DNA of 42,478 bases from Gammaproteobacteria bacterium. GTDB taxonomy: Bacteria; Pseudomonadota; Gammaproteobacteria; Ga0077536. Under the pieces are notes generated by a model, which did not search any database, had not been told where the DNA came from, and was given only the letters and a program-made list of their open reading frames with translations. Below are positions 23,511 to 24,625 of this stretch, one piece after another. Each line of letters starts with the position of its first letter. Position 1 is the first letter of the stretch. The stretch is from the NCBI GenBank assembly GCA_030429865.1, contig JAUIFX010000012.1, positions 1 to 42,478 on the forward strand, given 5' to 3'. The position numbers and the translations under genes are program-made.

Positions 23511-23779
23511 GCGGGTCCGCTCCGCTTAAGCCGCGCCGAGATTCGGCTGGTGCTGAGGCACGGCACGCAGGTGCCAGGTCCTGCCGCGCGGCACTTGGCT
23601 CCCGGGTGGCGGGTCCTGCCGCCTGCACCCTGTTGTCACGTCCCTCTGCGAGCGGCTCTGACGACGGCTTCATCTGGACGGGAACAATCCGGCAACGAGT
23701 CCGCTGGTGCTCTCCGTGGACCGCTTATCGGGGTGGGGAGCCCGGTGAGAAGTGCCCTGAAGCACGTGTTCGGGGGAGC

Positions 23780-23890
23780 AGGATTGACTCGCAAACGCTT
23801 GCTGCGTTTGCTCGCCCCTTCGGGGCGCCGTCGCTGCGCGCCGGCGTCCAGGTTCGCTGGCGCGAACTTGTCGAACGGTAGGTTCTCATC
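23780..23890. repeat. Copy 1 of 111-bp direct repeat (hairpin-rich)
   Basis: aggattgactcgcaaacgcttgctgcgtttgctcgccccttcggggcg...gcgcgaacttgtcgaacggtaggttctcatc. Differs from 23964-24074 at one position (ccaggttcg vs ccaagttcg). Confidence 0.95.
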
Positions 23891-23951
23891 GGGCGCGGTT
23901 CATTCGCCACGTGGGGAGTACGGGCCTGGTGGCAGGCACTGTCATGGATGC

Positions 23952-23969
23952 GGTTGGGGGACTAGGATT
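23952..23969 (-). repeat. Partial duplicate of the tRNA-Gln 3' end
   Basis: ggttgggggactaggatt matches 24130-24147 (ggctgggggactaggatt) at 17/18 positions, 178 bp away and in the same orientation. A degenerate copy (gttcgggggagcaggatt) lies at about 23769-23786. Confidence 0.85.
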
Positions 23970-24074
23970 GACTCGCAAACGCTTGCTGCGTTTGCTCGCC
24001 CCTTCGGGGCGCCGTCGCTGCGCGCCGGCGTCCAAGTTCGCTGGCGCGAACTTGTCGAACGGTAGGTTCTCATC
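23964..24074. repeat. Copy 2 of 111-bp direct repeat (hairpin-rich)
   Basis: Same 111-bp sequence as copy 1, 184 bp downstream on the + strand, with one mismatch. Internal stems GCAAACGC/GCGTTTGC, GCCCC/GGGGC and CAAGTTCGC-tggc-GCGAACTTG. Confidence 0.95.
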
Positions 24075-24081
24075 AGGGCCG

Positions 24082-24140
24082 GTCCCCCAGCCAAACAAAA
24101 ACGGGCCCGCAAGGGGCCCGTTCATGTTTGGCTGGGGGAC
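24082..24140. repeat. Perfect 16-bp inverted repeat including the tRNA-Gln 3' end
   Basis: gtcccccagccaaaca (24082-24097) and its exact reverse complement tgtttggctgggggac (24125-24140), enclosing a terminator hairpin. Confidence 0.9.
24096..24122 (-). terminator. Rho-independent terminator downstream of tRNA-Gln
   Basis: Minus-strand read: AACGGGCCCCTTGCGGGCCCGTTTTTGT; 8-bp GC-rich stem followed by T5. Confidence 0.8.
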
Positions 24141-24202
24141 TAGGATTCGAACCTAGACTGGCGGAGTCAGAGTCCGCTGTCCTACCATTAGACGATCCCC
24201 CA
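24129..24202 (-). tRNA. tRNA-Gln (anticodon CTG), CCA encoded
   Basis: Minus strand TGGGGGATCGTCTAATGGTAGGACAGCGGACTCTGACTCCGCCAGTCTAGGTTCGAATCCTAGTCCCCCAGCCA. Full cloverleaf pairing; anticodon loop CTCTGAC; GGTTCGAATC T-loop. Confidence 0.96.
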
Positions 24203-24253: not shown

Positions 24254-24625
24254 TCAATTCGTCGGTTCGCGGTCGTAGCCGTTGTACTCGCAGCGCTCGA
24301 TCAGGGCCTGTAACTGTTTCGCGATGTGCAGCGCCTCGGCGATCAGCCGGTGGGCGGTGGCCGTTTCCAGCAGGCCGATGTCGGCGGCGATGTAGAGTTG
24401 TGTGCGCATTTCGGCGCAGGCCCCGCGCGCGCTGCGCAGATGCTGTGCGAACTGCGGCCGCGAGCGGCGTTCGTAGCCATCGGCGATGCGTGTCGGCACG
24501 GCCAGCGAGGCGCGCGTGACGTGGTCGCGGAAGGCCGCATCCGTGCAGGCTGCGAGCGCCTCGTAGGTATCGACCGCAAGCCGGCAGGCCCGGTTCCACA
24601 CCGCGAGGCCTTGCAAAGCGTCCAT
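24254..24625 (-). CDS. Four-helix-bundle protein (S23/23S rRNA intervening-sequence-protein-like)
   Basis: MDALQGLAVWNRACRLAVDTYEALAACTDAAFRDHVTRASLAVPTRIADGYERRSRPQFAQHLRSARGACAEMRTQLYIAADIGLL follows the family pattern (L.VW..A..L....Y...., R.a...P.NIAEG..R, A.GS..E..tql..a..lg). Confidence 0.8.
   Translation of the reverse strand: MDALQGLAVWNRACRLAVDTYEALAACTDAAFRDHVTRASLAVPTRIADGYERRSRPQFAQHLRSARGACAEMRTQLYIAADIGLLETATAHRLIAEALHIAKQLQALIERCEYNGYDREPTN

Follow-up and report, generated by a model that had tools for sequence, protein, structure and literature searches.

A two-unit array of structured, tRNA-tailed repeats behind tRNA-Gln(CTG) is homologous to the Escherichia coli rtT and rrB elements

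The window analyzed here comprises positions 1–42,478 (forward strand) of contig JAUIFX010000012.1 from the Gammaproteobacteria bacterium assembly GCA_030429865.1. On its minus strand, a tRNA-Gln(CTG) gene is followed by an array of two structured units of about 115 nt each, 184 bp apart (Table 1). A gene for a 23S rRNA-intervening-sequence protein (PF05635, 78 bits) lies on the same strand at 24254–24625 and ends 51 bp before the tRNA gene. An earlier note, made from the sequence alone, had described two repeat units after this tRNA, each ending in a duplicate of the tRNA tail, and sequence comparison bore this out. The nearer duplicate has the position, the distance of 178 bp, and the 17/18 match that were given for it; the chance expectation of such a match inside a few hundred bp is far below one. 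The degenerate duplicate, which the note placed near 23769–23786, was found at 23768–23785 and agrees with the middle copy at 14 of 18 positions. The repeat of 111 bp that the note proposed is real but was made too short, since identity reaches 87% over a stretch of 160 nt (23740–23899 compared with 23924–24083). Likewise, the Arg/Lys/Pro-rich frame running through the array exists as an open reading frame but is not a conserved gene: across units, the lengths modulo 3 and the open frames are random, and there was no Pfam match, so a Tpr-like peptide was rejected. A hammerhead-like motif, CUGAUGAG, scored only 16 bits with the Rfam Hammerhead_II model and was also dismissed.

Between the tRNA and unit 1 lies an inverted repeat with arms of 27 nt (24082–24108 and 24114–24140) that are 93% complementary. 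The terminator hairpin is the inner part of this larger palindrome, and the inverted tRNA 3′ end is found directly behind the terminator. Compared with shuffled sequences, unit 1 folded better and unit 2 less clearly so; in unit 2 the inverted tag has decayed.

Table 1. Features of the tRNA-Gln(CTG) locus (positions in the window)
Feature	Position	Strand	Basis
tRNA-Gln(CTG), CCA encoded; host gene of the array	24129..24202	-	ARAGORN and Rfam RF00005, 64 bits
Long hairpin: tRNA 3′ end, trailer, terminator-like stem, inverted trailer, inverted tRNA 3′ end	24082..24140	-	Sequence
Terminator-like GGGCCC stem with T run, inside the long hairpin	about 24097-24120	-	Sequence
Inverted tRNA 3′ end GGCTGGGGGAC, P1 5′ strand of unit 1	24082..24092	-	Sequence; family-wide tag-swap pairing
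Unit 1, R1 match 99.5 bits, hairpins P2–P6	23959..24072	-	cmsearch, covariation, fold z = -3.35
P2 of unit 1 (GAAC-CUACC-GUUC)	24057..24069	-	Fold
P3 of unit 1	24033..24054	-	Both-side changes at 7/9 pairs, 29 sequences
P4 of unit 1 (long form)	24010..24030	-	Alignment and pair counts
P5 of unit 1 (CCCC-GAA-GGGG)	23999..24009	-	Alignment and pair counts
P6 of unit 1	23975..23995	-	Both-side changes at 6/8 pairs
Tag 1, copy of tRNA-Gln 3′ end, 17/18	23952..23969	-	Sequence comparison; 178 bp from tRNA end
Unit 2, R1 match 95.1 bits	23775..23888	-	cmsearch; fold z = -1.53
Tag 2, degenerate copy of tRNA 3′ end, about 14/18 vs middle copy	23768..23785	-	184 bp beyond tag 1
Mechanical ORF of 79 aa, judged non-gene	23886..24125	-	No Pfam match; frame not conserved

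A covariance model, R1, was built from 29 units of related genomes and contains 26 base pairs. In the underlying alignment 98.7% of the cells pair and both-side changes occur at 16 of the pairs; shuffled or slid versions of the alignment came nowhere near these values. The unit is a structured RNA with hairpins P2 to P6, closed by a stem, P1. Searching the host genome with R1 gave nine units, two of them at tRNA-Gln and the others at tRNA-Ser genes or contig ends. The note had asked whether the unit recurs beside other tRNAs with their own 3′ ends, and it does so in this same genome: single or paired units are found behind tRNA-Ser(CGA), tRNA-Ser(TGA), and tRNA-Ser(GGA), and these units have the Ser 3′ end in inverted form together with a direct tag that comprises at least the T-stem portion. 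A scattered REP-like family, which the note had offered as an alternative, was not supported. In unit 2 and in the Ser units of the host genome the tags are shortened or decayed and lack CCA; therefore, processing at these particular units is doubtful.

The Rfam model for RtT (RF00391) gave no match in the window, either at its gathering cut-off (45 bits) or at E ≤ 10, and because of this the connection of the window to RtT runs through its relatives and R1. That connection was found in both directions. When the tyrT and rrnB regions of E. coli MG1655 were searched, R1 recovered all three rtT units at tyrT (20.6–25.8 bits) and rrB at rrnB (33.6 bits). Conversely, the RtT model scored 61.5 and 54.8 bits on relatives found with R1 (L079 and L113), and gave a full-length match with E = 0.001 at the place of a window-type unit (G006:C325), but it exceeded its cut-off in only 23 of 369 genomes of the class. 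The period of the arrays is mostly 160–190 elsewhere and 178 in E. coli. Since R1 recovers rtT and rrB and the RtT model passes its cut-off on R1 units, the array in the window is a diverged tRNA-linked repeat (TLR), and the note's comparison of the locus with rtT at tyrT holds, with the unit recurring at tRNA-Ser genes. TLRs of exactly this class have been described in E. coli (PMC8144298), and the window array is therefore a diverged new member of it, with two units that share homology with rtT and rrB.

The family proved to be broad. R1 was positive in 131 of 369 genomes sampled from the class and in 48 of 299 sampled from the phylum, other classes included; these counts concern genomes of the phylum, and the background rate outside it rests on E-values. 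A pattern scan of named genomes found units in Woeseiaceae, Sedimenticola, Thiodiazotropha, Alloalcanivorax, Pseudohongiella, Legionellales, and others. We take RtT, RrA/B/F, and AaHKsRNA22 to be one family. R1 extends the TLRs over the Gammaproteobacteria and into further classes of the phylum, and it links the Rfam families RtT and AaHKsRNA22.

Two side observations concern database labels. Rfam sX4 (RF02223) matched a tRNA-Ser gene together with its terminator and inverted tag in several loci (L047 1604–1760, L005, L018, L059, and L079); judging from these matches, the sX4 family apparently covers a tRNA-Ser gene plus its TLR-type hairpin. Metagenome-assembled genomes labelled Klebsiella pneumoniae (CAMAXW, CAMCQE, and CAMATU; L194, L185, L151, and L238) carry window-type units, and the label looks wrong.

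The relation between the tag and its host RNA was determined for a survey set of 179 units that had been collected through DNA similarity or model searches, independently of the position of any tRNA. An upstream tRNA on the same strand was present for 118 of these units and a tRNA just downstream for 16, whereas 22 were near a contig end; among the 22 remaining, several were preceded by the remnant of a tRNA 3′ end or by another copy of the tag they carry. The first unit typically lies about 60 nt behind the tRNA. In 85 of 121 units behind a tRNA, the tag agreed with the last 17 nt of that tRNA at 13 or more positions, compared with 0.9% when the tRNA of another amino acid was used, and CCA followed the tag in 67 of those 85. 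Among the hosts are tRNAs for Ser, Gln, Arg, Glu, Lys, Pro, Asp, Trp, Tyr, and Val. The identity between tag and host tRNA was sharply bounded: 0–3% in the stretch just before nt 58, 79% at nt 58 itself, and 93–100% at nt 59–72, then 93, 89, and 85% at the three positions of the CCA, and 66% in the trailer, dropping to about 50%. The 5′ strand of P1 paired better with its own tag than with a swapped one (-15.6 vs -10.9 kcal/mol, p = 3e-14). These results demonstrated the following: The 3′ strand of P1 is the tail of the host RNA, from the T-loop (nt 58/59) to about the CCA, and the 5′ strand is its complement.

The rule is not limited to tRNAs. One unit (L273) is linked to tmRNA, with the tag AATCCCGCCGCCGCCA corresponding to ATTCCCGCCGCCTCCACCA in the tmRNA itself, and one (L275), a weak R1 match of 13.6 bits, is linked to 5S rRNA with a tag of more than 20 nt from the 5S tail. 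Because the tags match in both single cases, we conclude that the tag is the 3′ end of whichever stable RNA lies upstream. The tmRNA-linked case is an addition to the family made through R1.

About 12 of the 179 units lie within the T-loop of a tRNA copy that is nearly complete apart from this, and an intact copy follows a short way downstream. These T-loop forms may be insertions, or they may be deletions between GGTTCGA repeats. On the minus strand of one locus (L038, G046:C104, 1–1000), tRNA 5′ halves are interrupted by a repeat of another kind. It consists of GCGCCCGTAGCTCAGCTGG or a tRNA-Ser 5′ half, then GTGAG...GCGAACGCCGTACCAGGGATGG...GGGCCGGGGTTT...GCCATGGATGGC, and is present in at least four copies behind tRNA-Ser(GCT).

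How such an array might act is suggested by its E. coli relatives. By analogy with rrB, an RNA polymerase that passes the terminator would transcribe the unit as a tail of the tRNA transcript, and the inverted and direct tags would then pair to form P1. By mimicking the 3′ end of the host RNA, the tag could provide a second 3′-processing site of the tRNA type, which would be cut and trimmed in the same way; in E. coli such sites undergo RNase E cleavage and exonuclease trimming. The predicted product is a short-lived small RNA released in proportion to tRNA synthesis. Transcription and processing to a discrete RNA have been reported for members in E. coli (PMC8144298) and Actinobacillus pleuropneumoniae (PMC4986893), and the annotated end of E. 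coli RttR is the CCA of its tag. TLRs have probably spread by recombination through homology of the T-arm and the core, with selection or gene conversion keeping the tag identical to the host RNA. Taken as a whole, an explanation that combines a TLR array, a read-through tail, and a tag serving as a 3′-processing site is the one we favor, and we regard it as fairly probable. The T-loop units are not expected if processing is the whole explanation.

Those units are the starting point of the strongest rival, which sees the core as a small mobile element, non-autonomous and directed at the tRNA T-loop (nt 58/59), the tag being target sequence and the downstream units being insertions into partial or inverted tRNA copies. 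The flanks GGTTCGA and ATCC are T-loop sequence, several copies per genome are found at different tRNAs, and in the T-loop units the 5′ part of the tRNA is nearly complete with an intact copy downstream, in some cases identical over the 55 nt compared. However, no T-loop is used in the single 5S rRNA case or by rrA/B/F of E. coli, the 5′ strand of P1 changes along with the tag, and a deletion between the GGTTCGA of the tRNA and that of the unit could also have given rise to the T-loop forms. Moreover, the window unit, the only one searched, had no phage or plasmid match at the sensitivity of blastn, and the core contains no conserved open frame. We consider a mobile core unlikely, though worth keeping in mind. 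A larger version of the idea makes the TLRs a single ancient family of mobile RNA cores, spread over the phylum, which insert at T-loop-like positions of stable RNA genes and gain the host 3′ end (of tRNA, tmRNA, or 5S rRNA) and the strand that complements it, through copying or recombination of a kind so far not known from bacteria, with the T-loop-interrupted tRNAs as intermediates; this is speculative, and we think it improbable.

Units might instead be mainly transcription barriers, with terminators and hairpins in series and the tag a by-product of tandem duplication. Consistent with this, a terminator-like hairpin with a T run separated the tRNA from the first unit in 54 of 88 cases, and rrB of E. 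coli sits between T1 and T2. Plain terminators, however, need neither a covarying P3–P6 core nor tag edges running from T-loop to CCA, nor a 5′ strand matched to the tag, and we judge a mere barrier to be a poor explanation.

Titration of CsrA, as proposed for E. coli RrA/B/F, is very improbable here. Binding of RrB to CsrA has been published (PMC8144298), and GGA is found in hairpin loops of 103 of 143 units outside the family of the window; yet neither of the two window units has a GGA loop, csrA was not found in the host genome (G000) or a congener (G001), which are 96% and 100% complete, and GGA loops do not track csrA across genomes, being present in 50 of 70 with csrA and in 10 of 11 without it. 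It is the missing csrA, the missing loops, and this lack of relation that make titration unlikely at the locus; in addition, the 19 TLRs of E. coli tRNA operons scored below 0.01 (PMC8144298). Among unit-bearing genomes 69 of 80 have csrA, including most of the family of the host, the two genomes above being ones in which it was not found. In many genomes, a unit and csrA are no more than about 1 kb apart (G046:C104, G153:C8, G135:C38, G350:C16, G167:C23, G189:C19, G159:C1, G122:C53, and others), a proximity that probably reflects the conserved csrA–serV (tRNA-Ser GCT) neighborhood of E. coli, not a functional link. The note had also raised failed site-specific integrations at an att site in the tRNA 3′ end. 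The tag does span the 3′ end that integrases usually target, but integrations of the phage type can be set aside almost entirely: the unit has no integrase, and one conserved core stands at more than 10 tRNA types, tmRNA, and 5S rRNA, each with its own tail, a pattern not explained by an att core tied to a single tRNA.

The natural variants described here (tag swaps, T-loop forms, and genomes without csrA) make ideas about processing, CsrA, and mobility testable by comparison.

TLRs have been known from E. coli since 1978 (Egan and Landy 1978; Rudd 1999), and an array holds from one to five units in tandem. There are 22 in ten E. coli loci, and their 3′ 18–19 bp are identical to the upstream tRNA or rRNA (PMC8144298). 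A role of rtT in the stringent response was once proposed and has been retracted, as reported in PMC8144298. The window array resembles rtT/RttR at tyrT-tyrV (RF00391) in its position after a tRNA, its period of 178–184 bp, a tag that is the tRNA 3′ end, the motifs GATGAGAA and GGTTCGAC, a series of hairpins with GNA loops, and an inverted tag as the P1 5′ strand. It differs in its Gln(CTG) host, in having a terminator-like hairpin between tRNA and unit, in lying below Rfam detection in the host genome, and in the absence of a conserved Tpr-like frame. RrA, RrB, and RrF, which follow 5S rRNA in E. coli rrnA, rrnB, and rrnD, share the position behind a terminator, the tag from the host 3′ end, and the P3–P6 series; their 5S host, GGA loops, and reported binding of CsrA and Hfq set them apart from the window array, with no GGA loop and a host in which csrA was not found. 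The Aggregatibacter sRNA AaHKsRNA22 (RF02902) aligns along its full model with the two units of the window and with further R1 units, but only with sub-threshold scores (23–39 bits vs 39.8), and Rfam does not link it to RtT. In A. pleuropneumoniae, Arrc20 and Arrc21 are likewise RtT-family RNAs at tRNA genes that give Northern signals; they differ in being Pasteurellaceae RNAs associated with Asn and Lys tRNAs and in being described as upstream (PMC4986893). The published accounts of TLRs that we found cover Enterobacterales and Pasteurellaceae; relative to the TLRs known from them, the breadth of the family and the T-loop forms are new.
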